From assembly GCA_035968315.1 (NCBI GenBank), contig JAVYIN010000005.1, forward strand, positions 930,001 through 994,000: DNA of 64,000 bases. The letters run 5' to 3'. Of this stretch, positions 4,338-20,552 are shown one piece after another. The notes below the pieces were generated by a model. That model searched no databases. It saw nothing but the letters and a program-made list of their open reading frames with translations, and was not told where the DNA came from. The stretch is from Nitrospira sp. (GTDB lineage: Bacteria > Nitrospirota > Nitrospiria > Nitrospirales > Nitrospiraceae). A program made the position numbers and the translations under genes. Each line of letters begins with the position of its first letter. The first letter of the stretch is position 1.

Positions 4338-4664
4338 ATGCCAAAACCCACGCACCATATTCTCGTCTGCACCAACTCCCGTCCGCCGGGCCACCCGAAG
4401 CCGTCCTGCGGCAGTTCCGGGGCCGCCCAGCTGCTCATGGCCTTCAACATGGGCCTGATGCAGCGCGGCGTTATGCCGGGCCAAGTGCTCGTCAGCGCGA
4501 CCGGCTGCCTGGGCCCCTGCGAGCAGGGACCGACCGTCGTCGTCTATCCGGATGCCACCTGGTACTCCAAGGTGACCGAAGCCGACGTCGCCACGATCCT
4601 CGACGAACATATCAAGGGCGGCAAGCCCGCGGCCAAGCTGAACCCCGACGCGGTGTGGAAGTAA
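4338..4664 (+). CDS. Thioredoxin-like [2Fe-2S] ferredoxin
   Basis: 108 residues. Four cysteines have the spacing of the thioredoxin-like [2Fe-2S] ferredoxins: Cys11 (HHILVCTNSRP), Cys24 (KPSCGSSGA), Cys57 and Cys61 (TGCLGPCEQGP). The rest, 'GPTVVVYPDATWYSKVTEADV', is also typical. It acts as a small cytoplasmic electron carrier; the partner is unknown. The start is chosen at 4338 because AAGGAG lies 5 bases upstream; the longer open frame reaching back to 4125 overlaps the previous gene. moaB follows 16 bases later, so the two may be co-transcribed. Confidence 0.9.
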   Translation: MPKPTHHILVCTNSRPPGHPKPSCGSSGAAQLLMAFNMGLMQRGVMPGQVLVSATGCLGPCEQGPTVVVYPDATWYSKVTEADVATILDEHIKGGKPAAKLNPDAVWK

Positions 4665-4680
4665 CGCACGCGATTGCATC

Positions 4681-5193
4681 ATGGCCAGCGCAACCCATCA
4701 TGAACACAAGCACCATGCACCCCGGTCCATCGGGTGCATGGTCATTACCTGCAGCGACACCCGCACGCCCGAAACGGATACGAGCGGCCAGCTCATCCAG
4801 AAACTGCTCAAGGAAAACGGCCACAGCGTCGCCGCCTACCATCTCGTGAAAGACGAGCCGGCGCAGATCAAGGGACGGATCGCCGAAGGGATTGCGAATG
4901 ACGCGGTGCAAGCCATCATCATCAACGGCGGCACCGGCATCTCGCGGCGGGACTCCACGTTCGAGGCGGTCGATGCGATGCTGGAGAAACGGCTGGATGG
5001 ATTCGGCGAAGTCTTTCGCTATCTGACCTATCAGGAGATCGGCTCACCGGCCATCATGAGCCGCGCCACCGCCGGCATCATCAAGGGCCGCATCCTCTTC
5101 TCCACCCCCGGATCAGAAAACGCCGTCCGCCTGGCGATGGAAAAGTTGATCCTCCCCGAACTCGGGCATCTGGTCAAAGAACTCACGAAGTAA
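4681..5193 (+). CDS. moaB: Molybdenum cofactor biosynthesis protein MoaB/Mog family
   Basis: 170 residues. Contains the molybdopterin-binding signature: CMVITCSDTRTPETDTSG near the start, INGGTGISRRDSTFEAV (GGTG..RD.T) in the middle and 'ILFSTPGSENAVRLAME' towards the end. The family adenylylates molybdopterin before metal insertion (Mog), or is its MoaB homologue. A His-rich leader (ATHHEHKHHAP) precedes the domain. It is followed by a palindromic repeat element that separates it from the convergent CBS gene. Confidence 0.88.
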   Translation: MASATHHEHKHHAPRSIGCMVITCSDTRTPETDTSGQLIQKLLKENGHSVAAYHLVKDEPAQIKGRIAEGIANDAVQAIIINGGTGISRRDSTFEAVDAMLEKRLDGFGEVFRYLTYQEIGSPAIMSRATAGIIKGRILFSTPGSENAVRLAMEKLILPELGHLVKELTK

Positions 5194-5335: not shown

Positions 5336-5770
5336 TCAATCCTGCCCGATCTTCGGTTCCGAGTACGTCACCTCGGTTGAAATCTTCGACTGGGCATACT
5401 TCCGGTAGGACAACATCACATCCCGCACCGAGACCACGCCGACAATCGCTCCGCCCTTCGTGACCGCGAGATGGCGCACACCGAGATCGCCCATCATCTC
5501 CTGGGCATCATCCACCGGCTGATTTCCCTCGATCGTGCAGAGGGGCGTCGTCATCACTTTATCGACCGTCAACTTGCCCAGCGGCTTGCTGGTAGCGACA
5601 GCCCGGCGAACGATGTCGGTATCCGTCACGATCCCGACCAACTGCTTCCCCTTCTTCACCAGCAGCGACCCGACGCGCGCACTGCGCATCGTCTTGGCGG
5701 CGCTGACAATCGACGTCTTGGGCCCGATAGACTTCGGACGTTTCGTCATGATCTGCGCAACAGTGGACAT
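5336..5770 (-). CDS. Tandem CBS-domain protein
   Basis: 144 residues, essentially two CBS domains. The first (about residues 5-62) has 'MTKRPKSIGPKTSIVSAAK', VGSLLVKKGKQLVGIVTDTD. The second (about 70-130) has VDKVMTTPLCTIEGN and RHLAVTKGGAIVGVVSVRD. CBS pairs bind adenosine nucleotides or similar ligands and usually regulate a partner; no catalytic domain is attached. A good ribosome site (AAAGGAG, reading the minus strand at about 5779) precedes the ATG. The target is unknown. Confidence 0.88.
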   Translation of the reverse strand: MSTVAQIMTKRPKSIGPKTSIVSAAKTMRSARVGSLLVKKGKQLVGIVTDTDIVRRAVATSKPLGKLTVDKVMTTPLCTIEGNQPVDDAQEMMGDLGVRHLAVTKGGAIVGVVSVRDVMLSYRKYAQSKISTEVTYSEPKIGQD

Positions 5771-5978: not shown

Positions 5979-7007
5979 TCACACTGTCAGTACAATCTTC
6001 CCGAAGAACTTGCGAGACAACATCTGCTCTTGCGCCGCTCTCGCCTCTTTCAGCGGATAGGTGCGATCGATCACCGACATCAGACGCTTCTGCCCCATCA
6101 GCTCCGCCGCCTTTACGAGTTCCGCCCGCGTGCCCATGTAGGATCCTCTGATCGTATACTGGCGGGAGTAGATATACCGGAGATCCAGCTTCACCTCAGC
6201 GCCGGTCGTCGCGCCGCAGGTAATCAACCGCCCTCCCTTCGCGAGGGACTGCAGACAGCTCTCCCAGACCTCGGGTCCGATATGTTCGATCACCACATCG
6301 ACCCCATGCCCTTCGGTCAGCAGCTTCACTCGCTCCGCCACCTTTTCCTTGGAGTGGTTGATGACAGCATCAGCGCCAAGCACCACCGCCTTGGGAATCT
6401 TGTCGTCCGACCCGACGGTCGTGATCACCCGCGCTCCGGCCAGCTTGGCCATCTGAATGGCCATCGTCCCCACCCCGCTCCCGCCGCCCATGATCAGCAC
6501 CGTCTCGCCATGCTGCAATCCCGCGAGCGCGAACAACATATGCGACGCAGTCACGGACACGAGTGGAAAGGCCGCCGCCTGCTCGAACGAGAGATTCTCC
6601 GGCATCGGCAGCACATTGCGGAAAGGCACCTTCACATACTCCGCATAGCCGCCATGCATCATGGCGCCGATCAGGCTGTAGGTGCGGCAGAAGTTATCCC
6701 GGCCGGACAAGCAAAACTCGCACTTCCAACAGCTGATCCCCGGCGAGACAAAGACTTTCTGCCCGACCGTCACCCCCTCGACCTGCGCCCCCACCTGCTC
6801 CACGATCCCGGCGATGTCTGACCCCGACACATGGGGCATCGGCATCGGATAGGCCGGATTCCCCTGGCGAATCCAGATATCGAGGTGATTCAGCGCGCAG
6901 GCCTTAACGCGCACCAGCACATCCTCCATCCCGAACGACGGCAGCGGCACGTCTTCATACGACAACTTATCCGGCCCACCATGCGCGCGAAAGAGTACCG
7001 CTTTCAT
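5979..7007 (-). CDS. Zinc-type alcohol dehydrogenase-like MDR oxidoreductase
   Basis: 342 residues from the ATG at 7007 (MKAVLFRAHGGPDKL); upstream frame to 7190 is low-quality leader. The GroES-like N-domain carries the four structural-zinc cysteines in SCWKCEFCLSGRDNFC. The NAD(P)-binding Rossmann motif is 'LIMGGGSGVGTMAIQMAK' (GGGSGVG). It likely oxidises or reduces an alcohol/aldehyde or quinone-type substrate; the exact substrate is not predictable. The catalytic-zinc Cys of classical ADHs is not evident at the usual N-terminal position (HLDIWIRQG), so it may be a non-classical member. Confidence 0.85.
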   Translation of the reverse strand: MKAVLFRAHGGPDKLSYEDVPLPSFGMEDVLVRVKACALNHLDIWIRQGNPAYPMPMPHVSGSDIAGIVEQVGAQVEGVTVGQKVFVSPGISCWKCEFCLSGRDNFCRTYSLIGAMMHGGYAEYVKVPFRNVLPMPENLSFEQAAAFPLVSVTASHMLFALAGLQHGETVLIMGGGSGVGTMAIQMAKLAGARVITTVGSDDKIPKAVVLGADAVINHSKEKVAERVKLLTEGHGVDVVIEHIGPEVWESCLQSLAKGGRLITCGATTGAEVKLDLRYIYSRQYTIRGSYMGTRAELVKAAELMGQKRLMSVIDRTYPLKEARAAQEQMLSRKFFGKIVLTV

Positions 7008-7361: not shown

Positions 7362-8291
7362 CTAGAATTTCAAAGTTCCTTCCACCACCATCACACACTG
7401 CCCGCCCACCTTGACCGTCTGAATAATGTCGTCGTCCGAATCCACCTGCACGAAAATACGCGAGGGCCGGTCGATGGCGTAGCCCTGCTCGACAATGATC
7501 TCCGTCGTCGGCGCCACGTCCACCACACCGTTCTGCACCAGATAGGCCCCCAGCGCACCGCTCGCGCTGCCCGTCGCAGGATCTTCGAGAATCCCGATGG
7601 CCGGAGCAAACATGCGCGCGTGCACCGTGGAGGAGGGCTCCACCGTCACGGTCGTGTACACCATGATGCCGTTCGCGCCGAATCGCCGGCACACATCCGT
7701 AATGGCCGAGGCATCGGGACGGATCGACCGCACCGCCGTGAGCGTCCGCACCGGCACGATCATCACCGGCAGCCCGGTGGAGACCACTTCGATCGGCCAC
7801 TTCGTATCGGCGATCACATGCTTGGCCAGCCCCAGCGCGCTGGCGACCTTGTAGAGATCTTCCGTCTCCTCCACCGGGCCCAGGAACTCCGGCTTGGGCT
7901 GCGTCATCACGACCCGCTCCACCAGACCATCCTCCGCTTGGAGCTCAACCGGGAACAGCCCGATGTTGCACTCCTGCATGACGCGGATCACCGAATCTTT
8001 CACGGGAATGATCCCCAACTCGGCCAGCACGAAGAACGTGCCCAGCACCGGATGGCCGGCAAAGGGAATCTCCTGCGTGGGGGTAAAGATGCGCAGCCGC
8101 GCCACCGCGGCCTTGTCCGTCGGGGGAAAGACGAAGACGGTCTCGGAGAGATTCATCTCCCGGGCGATTTGTTGCAGCTGATCGTCGGACAGCCCGTCGG
8201 CCTCGGGAAAGACGGCCACCGGATTGCCACCGAACGGCTGGGAGGTAAAGACGTCGGCTTGGTAGAACTTGAGCGAGCGGCGATCAGGCAT
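7362..8291 (-). CDS. PhzF-family epimerase/isomerase
   Basis: 309 residues, the usual PhzF length. Motifs in order: FTSQPFGGNPVAVF near the start, MNLSETVFVFPP with the conserved catalytic Glu (about residue 51), IPFAGHPVLGTFFVL, and in the second half 'EDPATGSASGALGAYLV'. PhzF proteins have a diaminopimelate-epimerase fold and isomerise trans-2,3-dihydro-3-hydroxyanthranilate in phenazine producers; most homologues, like this one outside a phenazine operon, have unknown substrates. Family A repeats flank it on both sides, so it is probably a single-gene unit. Confidence 0.88.
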   Translation of the reverse strand: MPDRRSLKFYQADVFTSQPFGGNPVAVFPEADGLSDDQLQQIAREMNLSETVFVFPPTDKAAVARLRIFTPTQEIPFAGHPVLGTFFVLAELGIIPVKDSVIRVMQECNIGLFPVELQAEDGLVERVVMTQPKPEFLGPVEETEDLYKVASALGLAKHVIADTKWPIEVVSTGLPVMIVPVRTLTAVRSIRPDASAITDVCRRFGANGIMVYTTVTVEPSSTVHARMFAPAIGILEDPATGSASGALGAYLVQNGVVDVAPTTEIIVEQGYAIDRPSRIFVQVDSDDDIIQTVKVGGQCVMVVEGTLKF

Positions 8292-8458: not shown

Positions 8459-9697
8459 CTACGCAGGGCGCGGAAGCGCCTCATACTCCTGCACCATCGG
8501 ATTGCGCACATAGTTCTCAATATAGTTTTGCAGCGAGCCGTTGCGATAAAGCTGCTCGTTGGCAAAGCGCGTATCGACCTTGTGCAGCACCTTCACCTTC
8601 ACGCCGGTCTTCTGCGTGAACTGGTCGAGCGTGACGCCGGTAATATCGGTGTACGGCCCGCGCCCCGATTGCATGATGCACTTCGGCACATGGATGATCT
8701 TCTCGGTGGTCAGCCGCCGCATGATGTCGTCGAACGTCAGCAGCACCGTGCAATCCGAGTCCCCGCTCAGCATCGCATTGGGCACGTAGAGCACCTTCGC
8801 CTTGTTCTTCCGGTACATCGACAGGATCTTCGACACACTCCCGCCTGTTACCAGGGTATCCTTTTTCTCCAATTCAAGCGAGTCAAAGAGGCTCACGATC
8901 CGTTTGCGGCTCAAAAAGGCCGTAATATAGGCTTCCGTATGGATGGTCTGGAGATTCGGCAGGGCCGCGTCGTAGATCCGCAGGGCCTCTTCCGCCAGAT
9001 GCTTCCGGCCCTGCCGCATGAGGCTGGCCGTCTCCTCCTTGAGCCCCCGCACCGGCGTGAGCGTCCCCATCCAGAGCACGCACTTCTGATTGATCTTAGA
9101 AATCTCCAGCGCGTCCTTCGACATCGTCTGCCGATCGAACGAATAAAAATTCGCCGAGGATACGGCCGGCCCGTCCAGCACCTTCATCACATGCTTCACT
9201 GAGGGCGCGTGAGGCATGAGCCGCTGGCGATAATCGCTGAGCGTGATGACCGAGAGCTCGAAGTTGATCCGCCCCGGATACTGCGCAACCAGCTGATGGA
9301 TCTTCGGCACATGCACAAAGCCGACGGTGAAGAACTGAATGCTCTTGTCCGTGTACTTCAGAAAGTCCTCAACCCACTCCATGGCCTTCGGATGCAGGAA
9401 GAGGTCGGTCCATTCCATGTACTCATTGCCGCCCAGGCACCAGAACTGTTTCGGATCGGTCGGCTTCTTGCTGATGTAGTCGAGGATGTACTTCCAGTCG
9501 TCGTCGCTGGTCTTGGGCGGGTCGAGCGTCTCGCGGTAGGAGTGGTCCAGCTCGTAGCAGAACTCGCACTTCACCGGGCAATCGCGCCCGAGACTGAGCG
9601 GGATCTTCCCCGCGTCCATCTCACGGCGCAGCACCTCACGATAATCTTTCTTCGTGAAGATCGGAGCGGCCTGAAGCATGGGAATCGGTATTGGCAT
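8459..9697 (-). CDS. Radical SAM protein (CX3CX2C)
   Basis: 412 residues. The [4Fe-4S] cluster motif is CPVKCEFC (Cys40, Cys44, Cys47), preceded by 'GKIPLSLGRD'. A long body follows (LGGNEYMEW, GFVHVPKIHQL, NFELSVITLSDYRQRLMPHAP). The C-terminal third ('AKVLYVPNAMLSGDSDCTV' and GVKVKVLHKVD) resembles the C-terminal part of DUF512-type radical SAM proteins. SAM is cleaved reductively to a 5'-deoxyadenosyl radical; the substrate is unknown. It is the first of three radical SAM genes in 5.6 kb, with a divergent small J-like gene starting 34 bases from its start codon. Confidence 0.8.
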   Translation of the reverse strand: MPIPIPMLQAAPIFTKKDYREVLRREMDAGKIPLSLGRDCPVKCEFCYELDHSYRETLDPPKTSDDDWKYILDYISKKPTDPKQFWCLGGNEYMEWTDLFLHPKAMEWVEDFLKYTDKSIQFFTVGFVHVPKIHQLVAQYPGRINFELSVITLSDYRQRLMPHAPSVKHVMKVLDGPAVSSANFYSFDRQTMSKDALEISKINQKCVLWMGTLTPVRGLKEETASLMRQGRKHLAEEALRIYDAALPNLQTIHTEAYITAFLSRKRIVSLFDSLELEKKDTLVTGGSVSKILSMYRKNKAKVLYVPNAMLSGDSDCTVLLTFDDIMRRLTTEKIIHVPKCIMQSGRGPYTDITGVTLDQFTQKTGVKVKVLHKVDTRFANEQLYRNGSLQNYIENYVRNPMVQEYEALPRPA

Positions 9698-9731
9698 TGA
9701 TTGACCGTCTGACTCCGGCTACAGTAGTCCC

Positions 9732-9992
9732 ATGACCGACGATATCATCCCCAAAGAAGTCGCCCATGCGCTGGAGGTGCTGGGCCTCACGCTCCCCGTC
9801 ACCTCCGAGGATCTGGAACGGGCCAAGCGCGTGCAGCTCTATACCTGGAACCCTGCCCGCTACTCAAACCTGACCAACAATCCCAAAGCCTACATGCAGG
9901 CCTACAAGAAGGCCGAGGAGATGACCAAGCTGGTCGAAGCCTCGTATGCTCTCCTCACCGCCGTCCTGGTGCCGGATGAGTCTGGCGCGTGA
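9732..9992 (+). CDS. Small degenerate J-domain-like protein
   Basis: 86 residues. The pattern ALEVLGLTLPVTSEDLERAK, a basic/aromatic stretch (VQLYTWNPARYSN), then 'KAEEMTKLVEASYALLTAV' matches the helix arrangement of a DnaJ J-domain, but the HPD tripeptide needed to stimulate Hsp70 is replaced (NPA). It may serve as a docking or scaffold module rather than a true co-chaperone; that is inference. It is transcribed divergently from the radical SAM gene and convergently with the B12 radical SAM gene, and its stop codon is inside a 7-mer array. Confidence 0.65.
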   Translation: MTDDIIPKEVAHALEVLGLTLPVTSEDLERAKRVQLYTWNPARYSNLTNNPKAYMQAYKKAEEMTKLVEASYALLTAVLVPDESGA

Positions 9993-10036
9993 AACGTGAG
10001 ACGTGAAAGGTGAAAGATTTACGTTTCACCGTTCAC
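9989..10036. repeat. 7-mer array with inverted arm between convergent genes
   Basis: Units gtgaaac, gtgagac, gtgaaag, gtgaaag, a four-base spacer, then inverted units gtttcac and gttcacg. It contains the TGA of the J-like gene and overlaps the last codons of the opposite radical SAM gene (the SHDVS end), so it shapes both C-termini. It can form a hairpin. Confidence 0.75.
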
Positions 10037-11985
10037 GAAACATCGTGGCTCGTGACCCGACTCATCCCCTCATCTCCCTCCGGCTGCGCTACCGGCCAGG
10101 TAACGAGACCTGACACCCCTTCAGCCGCGCCGACCGCCACCTGCTGCTTGGCGTAAATCTGCGGCAGCTTGTTCGTCCCGAACTTGGAGATATAGAGAAA
10201 GACGTGCTCGCGGGAGTTCACCCGCACCGCCCAGGGCTGAAAATCGTTCTTGTAGAATTCTTCGCAAAGCTGCATCGCGTCGAGGCAGGAGAGGGTGCTC
10301 GGCTCGTTCAGCGTGTAGTAGTAGTCCAGCGGCAGGTCGTACTCCTCCTGCTTGTGGATCGTGATGCCGAACTTCTCCGGATTGCGCACCATCGGCGTGT
10401 GCCGATAGGCCACGAAGTAGAACAGTTCCACGGAATGGATCACCGGCTGGTTGTCGATGACGAACTGGCGCGTTTCCAGTGCCTCGTCGCGCGTCTCGCC
10501 GGGGAAGCCGTAGAAGGCCATTACATGATTCCAAATCCCCGCCTTCGCCGCCTGGTGGAGGTTGTTCTGGATCACGCTCTTCTTCGCGTGCTTGTCCATG
10601 AGATTCAGCACACGCTCGTTCGCCGACTCCATGCCGTAATAGAGCGTGCAGCAGCCGGCCTTGGCGGCGAGATCCCAGATGGCCTGATCTTGCAGCGTCT
10701 CCTCAAAGCGGATCAGCGTCGTCCACTTGATGCCGACGTTGTGCTCCACCAGCAGCTGCGAAACTTTCTTGAACAAAGCCGGCGGATAGGACTCGTCGCT
10801 GAAAAGAAAATGCCGGCAGTTGTACTTGTCGCGCAGCGCCGTCACCTGCTCGATCACATGCTGCGCCGTCATCCCGCGATATTGATCGAAGTAGCCCTGT
10901 CCGTGGTCGCAGAACGTGCAGCGGCCCCAGTAGCAGCCGCGCGTCGCGAGATAGGGAATGATCAGCTCCGGCACGAAGTAGCGGTCCAGCGGCAGGCCGT
11001 CGAAATCCGGCAGCGGGAGGGCCGCCGTCTTCTCCGTATAGACTTCCTTGCTCTGCTTCACCCCGTCGGCATGGCGATACATGAGGTTCGGCACCGACTC
11101 CATCGCCCGCTGGCCGTTCAGCGCCTCGATGTACCAGAGCAGCGCATGCTCGCCTTCGTAGAGGATCGCCGCATCGAACACCTCGGTAAAAAACCGCTCG
11201 TGATGCGGCAGCTCTTCCTGCAGCCGCGTGATCACGTTCCCCCCGACCACCACCTTGATGTGCGGGAAGGTCTCCTTGATCATCTTGCAGAAGGTCAGGC
11301 CCGCCAGCAGCTGCATCTGCGTACCGATGGACACGCCAACCACGTCCGGCTTCTCCTTGGCGACCGACGGCAGCACGAGCTGATTACAGATATCGCGGTA
11401 GACATTCACCTGCTCGTCGTCGAGACAGGCAAAGACTTCTTTCGAGACGCCGGGCCTGTAGCCCAGGTTGCTTTCCATCGGATAGAAGACGAGGGAGGCC
11501 GGATAGTAGGCGGCGGAAATATACTGCATCGCCTCGCGGAAGCAATTCAGCGCGCCTTCCAGCTTCTCGGCTTCGTAAAACCGTTCGCCGCGCACGATCA
11601 GCTTGGCGTCTTCCGCCCGCTCGGCCAGATCGAACACATCCACCGCATAGGCCTGCTCCAACACAGCCTTCTGATCCGCCTCGCGGTCCGTGAGCGTCCC
11701 GGCCTTTTCCTTATCTTGCAGCGGCTTGAGCTGCATGCCCAGACGGCCCTTCACCCAGATCAGGAACTCCATGGTGAAGAAGTGGTCGTACATCTCGATG
11801 TTGATGTCGCGCTGCACGACCGTATGACCGGCTTCGCGCAACACCGCCGTCAGCGACGGCAGCGCCAGATAGGGCGCCGTCGGCACCCACTCGGGCGGAA
11901 ACAGCAGCATCACCTTGGAGGTCTTCCGATCCTCTTTCTTGATCGGCGACAAACCGTCTATCTGTACGAGACCGGAGCTACTCAT
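10033..11985 (-). CDS. B12-binding domain radical SAM protein (paralogue 1)
   Basis: 650 residues. The N-terminal half has a cobalamin-binding-like Rossmann region (VMLLFPPEWVPTAPYLALPS, then VVGVSIGTQMQLLAG and VVVGGNVITR) with a long insertion at about residues 70-200. The radical SAM half carries RGCYWGRCTFCDHG, Cys351-X4-Cys356-X2-Cys359, a spacing one residue longer than canonical, then SDESYPPALF, 'YYGMESANERVLNLMDK' and FYGFPGETRDEA. Class B members often methylate or rearrange unactivated carbons, but nothing shows the substrate. A near-identical architecture is encoded by the next gene upstream on the same strand. Confidence 0.85.
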   Translation of the reverse strand: MSSSGLVQIDGLSPIKKEDRKTSKVMLLFPPEWVPTAPYLALPSLTAVLREAGHTVVQRDINIEMYDHFFTMEFLIWVKGRLGMQLKPLQDKEKAGTLTDREADQKAVLEQAYAVDVFDLAERAEDAKLIVRGERFYEAEKLEGALNCFREAMQYISAAYYPASLVFYPMESNLGYRPGVSKEVFACLDDEQVNVYRDICNQLVLPSVAKEKPDVVGVSIGTQMQLLAGLTFCKMIKETFPHIKVVVGGNVITRLQEELPHHERFFTEVFDAAILYEGEHALLWYIEALNGQRAMESVPNLMYRHADGVKQSKEVYTEKTAALPLPDFDGLPLDRYFVPELIIPYLATRGCYWGRCTFCDHGQGYFDQYRGMTAQHVIEQVTALRDKYNCRHFLFSDESYPPALFKKVSQLLVEHNVGIKWTTLIRFEETLQDQAIWDLAAKAGCCTLYYGMESANERVLNLMDKHAKKSVIQNNLHQAAKAGIWNHVMAFYGFPGETRDEALETRQFVIDNQPVIHSVELFYFVAYRHTPMVRNPEKFGITIHKQEEYDLPLDYYYTLNEPSTLSCLDAMQLCEEFYKNDFQPWAVRVNSREHVFLYISKFGTNKLPQIYAKQQVAVGAAEGVSGLVTWPVAQPEGDEGMSRVTSHDVS

Positions 11986-12054
11986 AGGCTCTTTCTATTT
12001 CGCGGCTCATCGCGCGTCACTGCCATTCTTCCCCCGGACCTCTACCCCACCTCG

Positions 12055-12075
12055 CCTCCCCTTACAAAGGGGAGG
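12055..12075. repeat. Short perfect hairpin between the two B12 radical SAM genes
   Basis: cctcccctt, loop aca, aaggggagg: a 9-bp perfect stem. It has no T-tract on the minus strand, so if it stops transcription it is not a classical intrinsic terminator. Confidence 0.5.
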
Positions 12076-12089
12076 AACGATCGCACCAC

Positions 12090-12124
12090 TTCATTCCTCT
12101 AGCCTCTCGCCCCTAGCCACGCAC
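12090..12124. repeat. Tandem 7-mer array, five units
   Basis: Units ttcattc, ctctagc, ctctcgc, ccctagc, cacgcac. It lies 3 bases from the stop codon of radical SAM paralogue 2. The c/g-rich units resemble the right arm of the array at 4256-4318. Confidence 0.65.
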
Positions 12125-12127
12125 CCA

Positions 12128-14026
12128 TCACATCTTCCCCGCCAGCGTCGGCGTATGCCCGGCAATCTTGGCGGCTTGATATTGCAGATCCCGCAACTTC
12201 TCCAAGCCGAACTTGGCGATATAGAGAAAGATATATTCCCGGATATAGAGCCGCAGGTCCCAGCCGGAATAATGGTTCCGCTCGAATTGTTCGAACACCC
12301 GCTCGGCCTCTTCGATGCTCATCCCGTTCTTCACCGTGTAATAGTAGTCGAGCGCCAAGTCCCACTCGGGGTTCTTGTAGGCCGTCACGCCCCACTTATC
12401 CGGATGCTTCGCCACCGGGTTATGCCGGCCCAGGTCGAACGTGCCGAACCCCAGCGAATGCACATGCTCTTTGTTCTGCTCTAGGAACTCCACCGACGAC
12501 CAGGCCTCTTCCTTCGTCTCGCCGGGAAAGCCGAAGAAGCCCATGCAGTGGTTCCAGATGCCCGCTTCAGCGGTGCGTTTCAAATGCTCGGTCATGATGG
12601 CGGTCGTCGTGGCCTTGTCCATCAGCTTCAGCACCCGCTCGTTCCCCGACTCGTAGCCGAAGTGGAGATACTTGCAGCCAGACTCCTTCGCATCCTGCCA
12701 AACTTGATCCTCAAGCAAACTCTTCTCGAACCGCATGTGTGTCGTCCAGAAGATGTCCATCTTGCTGTCGATCAACCCGCGCGTCAGCTTGCGGAAGAGC
12801 GCCGGCGGATAGGACTCGTCGGTGAAATGGAAATGCTTCGCCCCGTACTTGTCGCGCAGGTGCTGGATTTCGCCGAGAATGTCCTGAATCTTCTTCGTCC
12901 GATAGCCGGCGGTATAGCCCTCGCCATGGTCGCAGAACTCGCAGCGGCCCCAGTAGCAGCCGCGCGTCGCCAGATAGGGCAGAATCTTCGTCGGGACGAA
13001 ATACTTCTCCAGCGGCAATCCGTCAAAATCCGGCGGAGGCAGCGCATGCATGTCTTCCGCAAAGCTAGTCGCGGAGGTATGGACGCCGGTGGCGTCCTTA
13101 TAGATCGTGTTGGGCACCTCGGCCAGGCTCCGCTTCGCCCCCACCGCCGAGACCAGCTGGACGAAGGCCGTCTCCCCTTCATAGACCACGGCGCTGTCGA
13201 AGTATTGGAACAGGGGCGACTGCGGCAGCACATCGCGCAGGCGCGTGACCGTATTGCCGCCGATCGTGATGTGGATATGGGGGAAGTGCTGCTTGATGAG
13301 GGCACAGAAGGTCATGGTGGAGAACATCTGCTGCTGCAGAACGATCGAGATCCCGATCACGTCCGGCTGGGCCTGCTCAATCGCCGGCTTCACCAGATGC
13401 TCGAACACATCGCGGTAGATATTGACCTGTTCGTCGTTCACCGCCTCCATCACTTCGGAGGAGACGAAGACCTTATAGGACAGATCCGTCTCCATCGGCG
13501 GCATGCAGATCCGCGCCGGGGCATAGACCATCGAAATGACCGCAGTCACTTCGCGGAACACTTGAATGGCCCACTCTAACTGGTCGATTTCGTAGAAGAC
13601 TTCTCCGCGGATAATTGCCTTCGCCTTCTCCGCTTTCTTGATCAATTCATCGATCCGCTGCCTAGTCACATCGCAAAGCGCCAGCTGCAAATCCATCTCG
13701 TTGGCGTCCAGATCCCGCTTCTTGGAGAGCTTCCGGAGCCGGTCAAGTTGCTGCGGCACCCGGCGCAGGACTTTCTTCAAAAAGTCCTCGCTGAAGTACC
13801 AGTCCCACATTTCGAGGTTGATGTCTTTTTGGATGACGGTATGACCGGCCTGACGGAGGACAGCGGTAAGGGAGGGAAGGCTCAGATAGGGTTCGGAGGG
13901 AAACCAGTCCGGCGGGAAGATCAGCATGACCTTCATCTTCCGGCCGCTGCTAGCTTCAAAACTCTGACGATTCAGGAGAATCAGTTCTTTGGAAGCCCGC
14001 TCGCCCTTCGAATACTCAATGCGCAT
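12128..14026 (-). CDS. B12-binding domain radical SAM protein (paralogue 2)
   Basis: 632 residues. It parallels paralogue 1 along its length: VMLIFPPDWFPSEPYLSLPS, a helical insertion at 80-200, VIGISIVLQQQMFS and ITIGGNTVTRLRDVLPQ, then RGCYWGRCEFCDHG (Cys357-X4-Cys362-X2-Cys365), TDESYPPALFRKL, 'HFGYESGNERVLKLMDK' and FFGFPGETKEEAW. The pair clearly arose by duplication and then diverged. Both proteins could act on successive steps or form a complex. The start at 14026 is the first ATG; MKVMLIFPP at residue 31 is an alternative. The 143-base gap to paralogue 1 contains a hairpin and a 7-mer array. Confidence 0.85.
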   Translation of the reverse strand: MRIEYSKGERASKELILLNRQSFEASSGRKMKVMLIFPPDWFPSEPYLSLPSLTAVLRQAGHTVIQKDINLEMWDWYFSEDFLKKVLRRVPQQLDRLRKLSKKRDLDANEMDLQLALCDVTRQRIDELIKKAEKAKAIIRGEVFYEIDQLEWAIQVFREVTAVISMVYAPARICMPPMETDLSYKVFVSSEVMEAVNDEQVNIYRDVFEHLVKPAIEQAQPDVIGISIVLQQQMFSTMTFCALIKQHFPHIHITIGGNTVTRLRDVLPQSPLFQYFDSAVVYEGETAFVQLVSAVGAKRSLAEVPNTIYKDATGVHTSATSFAEDMHALPPPDFDGLPLEKYFVPTKILPYLATRGCYWGRCEFCDHGEGYTAGYRTKKIQDILGEIQHLRDKYGAKHFHFTDESYPPALFRKLTRGLIDSKMDIFWTTHMRFEKSLLEDQVWQDAKESGCKYLHFGYESGNERVLKLMDKATTTAIMTEHLKRTAEAGIWNHCMGFFGFPGETKEEAWSSVEFLEQNKEHVHSLGFGTFDLGRHNPVAKHPDKWGVTAYKNPEWDLALDYYYTVKNGMSIEEAERVFEQFERNHYSGWDLRLYIREYIFLYIAKFGLEKLRDLQYQAAKIAGHTPTLAGKM

Positions 14027-14449
14027 GAAGGAGGCTCCTCGTCTATCGCACCGGCATCCTGAAAGTGCCAGAATGCCAAGGGGTTAGGCTGTCGGAGAGG
14101 ACATTGTAAGGGGGCCAAAGATTGATATGCAAGAGCGTGAGACGGAGCGGCCAGATAGTCCTTAGATGTGGAGTGGAGAGGAGAAGGGAACGTAGGGGCA
14201 ACCAGGTGCTTTCCTATGCTCGCTGCCCGCGCACGCAAAAGCCGATTGTAGTGACAATGCAGGGGCGGTGCTCGGTCAATACGCGCAAACCGGAAAGCCC
14301 CTGGCCGCCCTTCCCCAATACAAAGGGAGAGGCGAGAAAGAGCGGCACCAACAGAAACACGAGGCCCTATGGCCACTCAGACAGCCGAGCCCTCTCTCAC
14401 TGTAAAGGCATACTTGACAGTTACGCCTGACACGAGCAGGATGGTAGGC
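14027..14449. other. Intergenic region upstream of higBA
   Basis: No convincing gene. It lies between the divergent radical SAM and higB genes and should hold both promoters. A ttgaca at 14414-14419 could be the -35 box for higBA, but no good -10 box follows at 17 bases. Confidence 0.4.
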
Positions 14450-14728
14450 GTGATCGAGAGTTTCAAGCACAAGGGGCTTGCAAGATTCTTTGAGGACGAT
14501 GACCGGCGAAAATTACCGGCATCACAGATTGACAAGATTGCCCGCATCCTGGCGCGGCTAAATGAAGCGATGATCGTGCAAGACATGGGGCTGCCAGGCT
14601 ATCGGCTCCACCCCTTAAAGGGAGAGCTGGCAGGCTTCTGGTCCGTAACTGTATCCGGCAATTGGCGGATTGTGTTTCGATTTGAGAATGGCAGCGCCTT
14701 CGACGTAGATCTGATTGACTACCATTAA
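14450..14728 (+). CDS. higB: HigB-type (RelE superfamily) toxin
   Basis: About 92 residues. 'IESFKHKGLARFFEDDDR' at the start, 'KIARILARLNEAM', then YRLHPLKGELAGFWSV and NWRIVFRFENG match the HigB mRNA-interferase family (ribosome-dependent cleavage). Start is taken as the GTG at 14450 (VIESF); an ATG at 14441 is equally open, and the frame reaches further upstream without a ribosome site. The higA antitoxin follows after 11 bases, the usual inverted toxin-first order of hig operons. Confidence 0.88.
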   Translation: MIESFKHKGLARFFEDDDRRKLPASQIDKIARILARLNEAMIVQDMGLPGYRLHPLKGELAGFWSVTVSGNWRIVFRFENGSAFDVDLIDYH

Positions 14729-17125: not shown

Positions 17126-17217
17126 TAGAGGGGGCTCCGGAAATTCGGACAGTGTGCTAAGTGGTAGCCTGGCTTCACCCACCCTGCTGAGGGGTGGCCG
17201 ACGAAAGGAGCGAGGCG

Positions 17218-17475
17218 ATGAAGCGAACACGACGGAATCACGGGGCCACGTTTAAGGCGCAGGTGGCGTTGGCGGCGGTCAAAGGCGACAAGACGCTGGC
17301 CGAATTGGCTGAGCAATTCAGCGTCCATCCCACCCAGATCACCGAATGGAAGCAGCAGTTGCTGGCGCGGGCGGCGGACGTGTTTGGCGGGGCGCCCCCG
17401 CCAGCCGACACGCCGGATCTCAAGACGCTGCATGCGAAGATCGGCCAACTGGCGCTGGAGAATGTTTTTTTAGCC
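17218..17475 (+). pseudogene. IS3-family transposase OrfA, 3'-truncated
   Basis: The frame begins MKRTRRNHGATFKAQVALAA and continues 'KTLAELAEQFSVHPTQITEW', an HTH of the IS3 OrfA (Tnp_1 type), then a leucine-zipper-like 'LHAKIGQLALEN'. After VFLAG the expected sequence is lost and replaced by unrelated codons. A ribosome site (AAAGGAG) precedes it. Confidence 0.85.
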
Positions 17476-17636
17476 GGAAAGAAAAAGGTGTCAGGAACCA
17501 TTTCCAGGTCTTGCCATCCGACACGCCCAGCAGACGTCATGCCCTCCGGCCGCCTCTCCACGCGGAATCCAAGACAGGGATGCGCGGAAGAAGTAGCGGG
17601 GTCGGGTTGAGGTGCCTCGGGTTTATGGCCGCCAGG

Positions 17637-17940: not shown

Positions 17941-19944
17941 CTATCGACTCATCCGCTTTTGCCCGCCTTTCTGCACGGCAGGGGCTCCGCCGTTCACGCC
18001 ACAGTTCGTCGGCGCCCCTGCGACGGGTGTCATCTCACTGGACAACCCATTCGCCGTGGCTTGGACGGCGCATGGCACAAACGGCATGGGGGTAATAAAG
18101 GCCCGGAAGCGCCCCGTATCCCCCGCTAACACCGTCGTGAGCAACGTGCCACTGTCCGCATCGAGGATCTGAACGGTCGCATTCTTCGGCGCCCGTCCGA
18201 CCACCGTGAGTTTGCCCGTGCTCGCAGTCCACTTGGCCCGTTGGATATAGACGCCTGAGGCCTGTGGAATCGTGCTGGTTTTGATCATGACCGTATCCGG
18301 CATGCTGGATACTGTTCCATCGTTGACGATGAGCTGGGCGATATATTCGCCGCTCAGATCTGCCGTAAACGTCGGCCGCATGGCGCCGGGATTGGACAGC
18401 ACCGCGGTGCTGCCGATCGGTTTCGTCGTCAAGGCCCACAGGAATGTCAGCGGATTCCCGTCGGCATCTCTGGACAGGCTGCCATCCAAGGTCACCACCA
18501 TCCCCGTTTGCACGGTTTGATCTGGGCCGGCATTGGCGACTGGCGCCGTGTTGCCTCCCAGCGTCGTAATGGTGACCGTATCCGGCGCGCTGTTGACCAT
18601 GCCATCATTGACGGTCAACTGGACCACGTACTGTCCGGCCACATCGGCGATGACACTCGCCATCATGGTCGTCGCGTTCGACAGAGTCGCCCTGCTCCCT
18701 GTCGGCTTGACGGTCAGGGCCCACTGATAGCGCAGCACATTGCCGTCAGCGTCTGCGGAGGCGCTCCCATCCAATTGAACCGTTGACCCGGCAGGGACCG
18801 TCTGATCCGGACCGGCATTGGCGACCGGTGCCAGATTCACGGCGGTCGTGGTGATCGTCACAGTATCGGGTAAGCTATTGACCATGCCATCATTGACGAT
18901 CAACTGGGCCACGTATTGGCCAGCTCTGTCAGCGACGAATGTCGGCTTTGCGGCCGTCGGGTTCGAGAAGGTCGCGGTGCTTCCCGTCGGCACGGAGACG
19001 AACATCCAGTCGTAGGTCAAGGGATTGCCATCCACATCGGTTGACCCACTCCCGTCCAAAGTGATCGTTGAGCCAACCGTGGCCGCCTGATCAGGGCCGG
19101 CGTTGGCCACCGGTGCCGTGTTAGTCGTGGTGATCGTCACGGTCGCTGGAGCGCTATTCACCGTTCCATCGTTCACAATGAGCCGCACCAGATAGTCCCC
19201 CGCTTTATCCGCCACGAAGGTCGGCTTGACGGTGGCGGGCCCCATCAGCGTTGCGGCACTTCCGGTTGGCACGGAGACAAATGCCCACTGGTAGGTGAGT
19301 GAATTGCCATCTGCATCCGTCGATCCACTGCCATCGAGCGTTACGGTGGCTCCCATTCTGGCCGTCTGATTCGGCCCCGCATTGGCCACCGGTGCCGTAT
19401 TGGACGTGCTGATCGTCACGGTTGCCGGCAGGCTGTTCACAAGCCCGTCATTGACGATGAGCTGGACGACATATTGTCCAGCCATGCCAGCCAGAAACGT
19501 CGGCTTGGCTGTAGTCGGGTTGGCAAGCGTAGCGCCACTGCCTGCCGGCTGGGATACAAACGACCACTGGTACGTCAGAGGATTGCCATCGACGTCGCTG
19601 GATCCCGTGCCGTTTAGCGTGACCGTCGTGCCAAGCGCGACCGTTTGATTCGGACCCGCATTGGCGATTGGCGCGGTGTTCTTGACCGGACACATCGCAG
19701 CTGAAGGTGCGAACCCATTATTTTTAAACAAGGTCCCCGTACTGTTTAAGGCTGGAGGCACTCCGTTGACATGGCAGAGCGCGCAGCTTTGATCGGCGTA
19801 CGGGGTCGTGCCGTTGTACGACTGGCAAAACGTATCAGTTTGTGAGCCGAACAACCCCAGTGCATGGCTGGGCGTCGCATCAACCGCGATCAAACCCTTG
19901 GCCACCAGGAGGACCAAGAGGAAACGGAACAGCGGGTGTTTCAT
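17941..19944 (-). CDS. Secreted PKD-repeat protein with one CxxCH motif
   Basis: 667 residues from the ATG at 19944, which has AAGGAG 6 bases upstream; the frame continues upstream but as an unlikely leader. Signal peptide: HPLFRFLLVLLVAKGLIAV, cleaved after SHA. Next comes SCALCHVNG (one CxxCH, possible c-type heme site, about residue 50). Five PKD/Ig-like repeats of about 95 residues each begin with N(T/L)AP(I/V)ANAGP(N/D)Q. A C-terminal domain follows ('VYIQRAKWTASTGKLTVVG') with a Cys pair. PKD arrays are extracellular adhesive or spacer modules. The gene is monocistronic. Confidence 0.85.
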   Translation of the reverse strand: MKHPLFRFLLVLLVAKGLIAVDATPSHALGLFGSQTDTFCQSYNGTTPYADQSCALCHVNGVPPALNSTGTLFKNNGFAPSAAMCPVKNTAPIANAGPNQTVALGTTVTLNGTGSSDVDGNPLTYQWSFVSQPAGSGATLANPTTAKPTFLAGMAGQYVVQLIVNDGLVNSLPATVTISTSNTAPVANAGPNQTARMGATVTLDGSGSTDADGNSLTYQWAFVSVPTGSAATLMGPATVKPTFVADKAGDYLVRLIVNDGTVNSAPATVTITTTNTAPVANAGPDQAATVGSTITLDGSGSTDVDGNPLTYDWMFVSVPTGSTATFSNPTAAKPTFVADRAGQYVAQLIVNDGMVNSLPDTVTITTTAVNLAPVANAGPDQTVPAGSTVQLDGSASADADGNVLRYQWALTVKPTGSRATLSNATTMMASVIADVAGQYVVQLTVNDGMVNSAPDTVTITTLGGNTAPVANAGPDQTVQTGMVVTLDGSLSRDADGNPLTFLWALTTKPIGSTAVLSNPGAMRPTFTADLSGEYIAQLIVNDGTVSSMPDTVMIKTSTIPQASGVYIQRAKWTASTGKLTVVGRAPKNATVQILDADSGTLLTTVLAGDTGRFRAFITPMPFVPCAVQATANGLSSEMTPVAGAPTNCGVNGGAPAVQKGGQKRMSR

Positions 19945-20552
19945 GACTTGCTCCTTCATCAAGACCAGCATTTCCTTCGCATGCGCGGCCGCGCGGCAAA
20001 AGAAACCGATCCTTGTCGTGAATAGAAAACACTGGGCCCAACACGACTGGACTAGAGCAAGGCCGGTGCCAATAGGCATCCCCTGATATTTCCTGCAGAT
20101 CAGCCACTATTTACAAAATTTGTCGCACGCAGGATTGTCCGAGCAGCATGACAAACCATACATGTCTGGGAAACATATCCCAAACTCATCGACATAGATC
20201 GACGTGATTTTCAATCTCACGGCACACGCCTGACGACTGTACAGATAGTCGGACGAACAGAGAGGGGCTTGGTTTGAGAAACTATTTCCCGGAGACACGG
20301 AATAACGTTGCACAAGAATCGCACAATCAGGGTCTTCTCATCCGCCATTTCACGGCGCGTGGCGGTCTTCTGAGGTGCTCTTCATCGCGTGCCGCGCATC
20401 TCGCCGGTTTCAATTTCCCATTGCCATCGGCCATACGCCACCAGATTGCCCCCCGACTCACAAGCCCATAGACCACGCTAATCCTGCACAGTAGAATATT
20501 CCCGTTCAGTGCCTCCGTGTTTGTACCGCCATGATATCGATGGGTGGTCATC
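19945..20552. other. Intergenic region between divergent genes
   Basis: About 600 bases between the PKD gene and the flavoprotein gene. Short frames occur on both strands but none has a ribosome site or recognisable sequence. It must contain the promoters of both genes; no strong consensus box stands out. Confidence 0.4.

Follow-up and report, generated by a model that had tools for sequence, protein, structure and literature searches.

The block of radical S-adenosylmethionine (SAM) genes analysed here lies in a 64,000-nucleotide stretch of a Nitrospira sp. genome (GCA_035968315.1, contig JAVYIN010000005.1, positions 930,001 to 994,000; hereafter the window). It encodes two paralogous B12-binding proteins, P0003 and P0002, a third radical SAM protein, P0001, and a small J-like protein (Table 1). 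Our leading interpretation, tentative and held at somewhat less than an even chance, is that P0003 and P0002 are cobalamin-dependent radical SAM protein C-methylases that serve the nitrite-oxidation machinery and belong to one subfamily with P3, a paralogue encoded in the nitrite oxidoreductase (NXR) gene cluster of the same genome. The predicted fold, the cluster motifs, synteny, the position of P3 in the nxr operon and the co-distribution with NXR were directly observed, and the case for a link to NXR is stronger for P3 than for the P0003–P0002 pair. NXR produces nearly all nitrate in nature and has been counted among the most poorly understood enzymes of the nitrogen cycle, and how its direction is set is an open question (PMC8387239). 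Anammox Planctomycetes and Nitrospirales both keep a probable cobalamin-dependent radical SAM gene in the NXR operon, and this gene could act in a maturation step of NXR that has so far escaped notice. If this is true, NXR maturation would account for a vitamin B12 requirement in nitrite oxidisers and anammox bacteria.

Domain architecture and relatives of the block proteins

The original prediction, made from the letters of the window, placed three radical SAM genes and a degenerate J-domain open reading frame (ORF) in one block, and re-reading of the ORFs and motifs confirmed this arrangement. P0003 and P0002 proved to be B12-binding paralogues, as it had proposed, with 46% identity over 606 aa. 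In both proteins, a B12-binding domain (37 and 41 bits; Pfam cut-off 32.1) precedes a Radical_SAM domain (56 and 60 bits; cut-off 29.5), so that both Pfam cut-offs for B12-dependent radical SAM proteins were passed. The cysteines C357, C362 and C365 of P0003 were invariant across 27 relatives. Their CX4CX2C spacing is indeed unusual, but it has already been described in the aminoglycoside C-methylases GenK, GenD1 and Sis14 (PMC4340712). These enzymes also share B12 dependence but act on sugars and are encoded in antibiotic clusters, and no such genes occur here.

The AlphaFold2 model of P0003 (mean predicted local distance difference test, pLDDT, 88.3) contained the expected helical insert of about 130 residues, with its helices placed between the second Rossmann strand and the next helix-strand unit. 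A structure search with this model retrieved OxsB (Z 23.6), TsrM (22.8), AprD4 (22.0) and MgmA (21.3), and CysS and TokK were also among the matches. OxsB and TsrM, the closest in structure at 16–19% identity, differ in acting in natural-product pathways, where they catalyse ring contraction or the polar methylation of tryptophan. MgmA (PDB 9ccb) likewise combines a B12-binding Rossmann domain with a radical SAM core, but it is about 200 residues shorter than P0003 and, judging from this length, would lack the insert.

Among curated profiles, the best matches to P0003 and P0002, respectively, were the P-methyltransferase PhpK (TIGR04479; 143 and 131 bits, cut-off 600) and, in second place, the C-methyltransferase of ribosomally synthesised and post-translationally modified peptides (RiPPs) (TIGR03975; 113 and 131 bits, cut-off 281.85). 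The MgmA profile TIGR04014 gave 48 and 56 bits (cut-off 360), and the lipid profiles HpnR, HpnJ and rSAM_ladder_B12 gave 51–72 bits (cut-offs 650, 577.6 and 360). As every score was below its cut-off, membership of the MgmA, PhpK, TIGR03975, hopanoid and ladderane families was rejected. The curated profiles nearest to P0003 are those of B12 radical SAM methylases, and P0003, P0002 and P3 probably form one new subfamily of such enzymes.

P0001 carries a different motif, CX3CX2C, and in Pfam its Radical_SAM match was sub-threshold and its DUF512 (PF04459) match weak (13.7 bits; curated cut-off 25). DUF512 was nevertheless found in all ten P0001 orthologues (best E 5e-5). This domain binds cobalamin and corresponds to the cobalamin domain of Mmp10-like enzymes (PMC11659888), in which it also follows a CX3CX2C radical SAM domain. 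P0001 thus resembles cobalamin enzymes of the DUF512/Mmp10 type, which the original prediction had missed. Because DUF512 binds cobalamin in Mmp10-like methylases, all three radical SAM proteins of the block are probably B12-dependent methylases. P0001 departs from Mmp10 in that the window's copy scores under the Pfam cut-off, has no PDZ match and belongs to a family of patchy occurrence in Nitrospira. Its structure model (pLDDT 33) was unusable, and no PDB sequence match was found for it.

The J-like protein was correctly placed in the block by the original prediction, but its gene lies on the opposite strand. The window's own ORF had no Pfam match. DnaJ was matched by 6/10 orthologues (best E 1.4e-6), and a profile of the family matched DnaJ structures. 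The HPD tripeptide of J domains, which stimulates Hsp70, was replaced by HPxR, NPxR or TPxR in all ten.

Conservation of the block and association with NXR

Conservation was counted over 52 named Nitrospirales loci whose sequence extended 6.5 kb or more past P0003. P0002 followed P0003 in every one, and the opposite-strand J gene was kept in 50 of them. The gene order was common to families f1 (which includes the window's genome, 3.1 Mb, and whose members in named collections belong to Nitrospira) and f2, and the same block occurs in N. moscoviensis (L149) and N. defluvii (L171). Since this synteny spans two families of the order, the arrangement is not due to chance. P0001 was patchy (29/52 loci; 24/59 genomes), and in one f3 genome (G355) it was on a different contig from the adjacent pair (L108). 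Therefore, the unit is the pair plus J, with P0001 optional. The view of the block as a conserved radical SAM island with no assigned product was thus upheld. Within Nitrospirales, P0003, P0002 and J travel together, which argues against independent occurrence with no shared context. The grouping of all three radical SAM genes was less general, given the patchiness of P0001 and the occurrence of P0003 alone in anammox bacteria.

The third paralogue, also overlooked at first, is encoded at C3:209495-211270 of the window's genome. P3 shares 36% identity with P0003 and has the motif CYYKDCAFC. It is flanked by a PDZ/NxrC/NHL/TPR group and by NxrC-TorD-NapG with a two-component system. The NxrC/TorD/NapG setting was kept in all 14 Nitrospirales loci compared (f1 and f2), and the gene content of the cluster matches NITMOv2_3614-3631, which has been listed as part of the diagnostic gene set for nitrite oxidation (PMC12342949). 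The P3 cluster of the window's genome (L028, G000:C3:200000-219500) also holds two multihaem cytochromes and an uncharacterised 332-aa protein, c4, whose gene also adjoins nxrA in anammox operons.

An NxrA query replaced the NXR marker TIGR03479, which was too insensitive. Across the order, P3 was present in 185/196 genomes and NxrA in 160/196. The four f40 genomes had neither P3 nor NxrA, nor any other member of the family. Judging by NXR content, f1–f3 would be Nitrospiraceae, UBA8639 and NS-4, which carry NXR, and f40 would be the NXR-free UBA2166 (PMC12342949). P0003 orthologues occurred in f1–f3 and in anammox bacteria; in other classes of the phylum none was found at E 1e-70, the sole exception being a remote relative (34%) in one f15 genome. 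In the window's genome itself, nxrA-like sequence was confined to N-terminal fragments at the ends of contigs, and these are probably collapsed repeats. Another genome of that genus, assembled as one contig (G070, 3.6 Mb), had P3 and the pair, and NxrA was not found in it.

A genome scan with a remote relative as query, in which most matches came from Nitrospirales, also reached Ca. Loosdrechtia, Ca. Scalindua and another member of Brocadiaceae. Their proteins shared 57–63% identity with P0003 (54–64% across anammox orthologues), 45–47% with P0002 and 32–37% with P3. The family was held by 49/75 genomes of the anammox class, in two main kinds, P0003 orthologues and P3 orthologues (45–51%). The P0003 orthologues had no P0002, P0001 or J beside them. 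In nine Scalindua-type genomes (L263, L264 and seven further loci), P3 lies directly behind nxrA, and genes for a NapG-like ferredoxin, an Mrp/NUBPL carrier and mostly MoaA and MoaC come after it. In one group of anammox genomes, P3 adjoins a histidine kinase and an NtrC regulator of the Nitrospirales kind. Thus, P3 adjoins nxr structural genes in independent lineages, namely 14 Nitrospirales clusters and nine anammox operons. In the anammox class, the family and NxrA were both present in 42 genomes, one without the other in 7 and 11, and neither in 15 (Fisher p 1.5e-4, kinship among genomes being ignored, which inflates such co-occurrence figures). Upstream of one anammox P0003 (L222:1020-2361) are a hemerythrin-like gene and a c-type cytochrome gene with three CXXCH motifs, and similar genes occur in several other anammox genomes.

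In the phylogenetic tree, the P3 and P0003 clades each combined anammox and Nitrospirales sequences (SH-aLRT 99 and 96), and the P0002 clade contained Nitrospirales only (SH-aLRT 100); the tree search was quick and the outgroup branches were long, and the branching order of the three clades is unsettled. Scalindua P0003 was nested inside Nitrospirales with f2 sequences (SH-aLRT 99), which means that P0003 moved between the two guilds. This distribution across nitrite oxidisers and anammox bacteria was not part of the original prediction.

Several observations weigh against a role of the family in nitrite oxidation. The pair does not adjoin nxr genes, and it was missing in 10/109 high-quality f1 genomes (hand count; scored missing where the best match scored like P3 or no match existed). 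Seven high-quality genomes (G108, G126, G128, G133, G140, G145 and G076) have NxrA and P3 without the pair, which is dispensable and not needed for NXR. Many anammox genomes have P3 without P0003, and some NxrA genomes (G430, G431, G433 and others) lack the family. A marine Nitrospirae metagenome-assembled genome (L215) has P0003, and NxrA was not found in it; its gene row (L215:720-5714) comprises a TIGR03975-like enzyme with CX7CX2C, unlike the CX4CX2C of P0003, the P0003 orthologue and an Mrp-type carrier gene resembling that of the anammox nxr operon. AprD4 shares the fold of P0003 and does not methylate. Finally, the paper on the 3.0 Å structure of Kuenenia NXR does not mention a methylated residue (PMC8387239). 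A single methyl is hard to see at this resolution, and the structure neither shows nor excludes one.

Candidate substrates and alternative roles

We infer the chemistry, the substrate and the role of the J-like protein as follows. Given the fold and the related families, a [4Fe-4S] cluster held by CX4CX2C would cleave SAM, and cobalamin bound in the Rossmann domain would pass the SAM-derived methyl group on to an unactivated carbon. The substrate would most likely be a residue of a nitrite-oxidation protein: NXR in the case of P3, and NXR itself or one of its partner proteins in the case of the pair. Where P0001 occurs, it would add a further methylase of the Mmp10 (DUF512) type, and the J-like protein might present the substrate or assist its folding.

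PqqD-type domains recognise peptides in RiPP systems. Such a domain occurs at the C-terminus of a relative from the uncultured archaeon LFW-280_2_2 (L192:1-4855; motif CYWGRCTFC) and of a Dehalococcoidales relative. The archaeal gene has the 3' end of mcrA (MCR_alpha, E 7e-59) as its neighbour and may encode a further enzyme that modifies methyl-coenzyme M reductase (MCR). MCR is modified by MgmA and Mmp10 (PMC11796369, PMC11659888). MgmA methylates a glutamine of this key redox enzyme, and its gene clusters with the MCR operon in some orders (PMC11796369). These precedents, together with the profile match to MgmA and the PqqD-bearing archaeal and Dehalococcoidales relatives, favour a polypeptide substrate. 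Other remote relatives, in G234 (L139; phospholipase-like and hydrogenase genes around) and Myxococcus (L146; siderophore-type transport and other genes around), have uninformative surroundings.

The operon of P3 makes NXR its first candidate target, and the presence of P3 within the anammox nxr operon implies that NXR may carry chemical modifications. The pair would be linked to NXR through paralogy, co-distribution and guild-to-guild exchange; being dispensable, it is an accessory. A bolder proposal is that a dedicated B12 radical SAM system (P3, with P0003, P0002 and the Mmp10-like P0001 in some lineages) methylates carbon atoms of NXR residues in Nitrospira and anammox bacteria, as a counterpart of the MCR modifications; this we regard as rather unlikely. 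Our literature search found no paper joining radical SAM with NXR of Nitrospira or Kuenenia, and no paper in the library searched reports a chemical modification of NXR.

Alternatively, the enzymes could methylate a small molecule or membrane lipid common to Nitrospira and anammox bacteria, such as mid-chain methyl-branched fatty acids or a polycyclic lipid. Both groups have unusual lipids, and HpnJ, HpnR and rSAM_ladder_B12 gave weak matches. However, these scores are far under the curated cut-offs, and the conserved block is without lipid genes. The fatty acid 11-methyl-16:0 is a marker in N. moscoviensis, is not one in N. defluvii and is only a trace component in N. marina (PMC3660363), whereas the whole block is present in N. 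defluvii and in the f2 genomes, expected to represent lineage IV. This fatty acid was rejected as the product because its distribution disagrees with that of the genes. Of the alternatives, a lipid or small-molecule substrate survives best, yet we consider it unlikely.

Somewhat less likely still, the pair might have drifted to a housekeeping or stress role outside nitrite oxidation, leaving only P3 to serve NXR. Such a drift fits the absence of the pair in roughly one in ten high-quality genomes of the family, P3 being kept in most of these, and also its PhzF, quinone oxidoreductase and CBS neighbours, which are unrelated to NXR. Nevertheless, the two guilds with NXR both have P0003 and have exchanged it, and the E 1e-70 search of other classes described above agrees with this restriction, L215 being the one near exception.

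It seems improbable that the enzymes act on molybdopterin or haem as a cofactor of NXR or of its partner proteins and not on a polypeptide. The ferredoxin, Mrp and moaA-moaC genes after P3 in Scalindua-type operons, the MogA-like gene near the pair and a weak BchE similarity would suit it. Against it, ordinary molybdenum cofactor maturation is not known to need a B12 enzyme. The Kuenenia NXR structure contains bis-molybdopterin guanine dinucleotide (with open pyran rings) and haem b, and no unusual cofactor (PMC8387239).

Least probable is a RiPP pathway in which the B12 enzymes methylate a genome-encoded peptide: the second-ranked TIGR03975 profile, the PqqD-type domains of remote relatives and the TIGR03975-like gene adjoining P0003 in L215 are offset by the lack of a PqqD/RRE domain in P0003, P0002 and P3, of any conserved small ORF besides the J-like gene in the 34–168 nt gaps that separate the conserved genes in the window, and of a conserved protease or export gene. 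With little room for a RiPP precursor, and with family members beside nxrA and mcrA, the undescribed metabolite pathway first suggested for this block is not favoured over protein methylation.

Gene layout and neighbouring genes

Table 1. Features of the radical SAM block and its conserved neighbours (window coordinates)
Feature	Position	Strand	Length	Basis or occurrence
P0003, B12-binding radical SAM protein, CX4CX2C	12128-14026	-	632 aa	ORF, Pfam, AlphaFold2 model
P0003 cluster motif CYWGRCEFC	12932-12958	-		re-read from window sequence
P0003 helical insert, residues 69-203, in cobalamin-binding Rossmann domain	13418-13822	-		AlphaFold2, pLDDT mostly >90
P0002, P0003 paralogue, CX4CX2C	10033-11985	-	650 aa	ORF, Pfam
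P0002 cluster motif CYWGRCTFC	10909-10935	-		re-read from window sequence
J-like protein, degenerate J domain	9732-9992	+	86 aa	between P0002 and P0001
P0001, radical SAM protein with DUF512-like C-terminus	8459-9697	-	412 aa	
P0001 motif CPVKCEFC (CX3CX2C)	9557-9580	-		re-read from window sequence
P0001 DUF512-like, probable cobalamin-binding region, residues 280-371	8585-8860	-		PF04459 in 10/10 orthologues
PhzF-like protein, conserved neighbour	7362-8291	-		51/52 loci
Zinc-type alcohol dehydrogenase / quinone oxidoreductase, conserved neighbour	5979-7007	-		
CBS-domain protein, beside some of the loci	5336-5770	-		recognised by eye; conserved
MoaB/MogA-like protein, conserved neighbour	4681-5193	+		recognised by eye; 44/52 loci
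Thioredoxin-like [2Fe-2S] ferredoxin, conserved neighbour	4338-4664	+		

Just upstream of the block, a HigB-like toxin gene (14369-14728; Pfam E 2.4e-21) seems to be followed by a HigA-like reading frame. Further along, a transposase-like fragment (HTH_Tnp_1; 17194-17610) is probably the remnant of a mobile element, and a 712-aa protein (17941-20079) with about five PKD-looking repeats (AGPxQTV...DGSxSxDADGN) has the appearance of a secreted protein.

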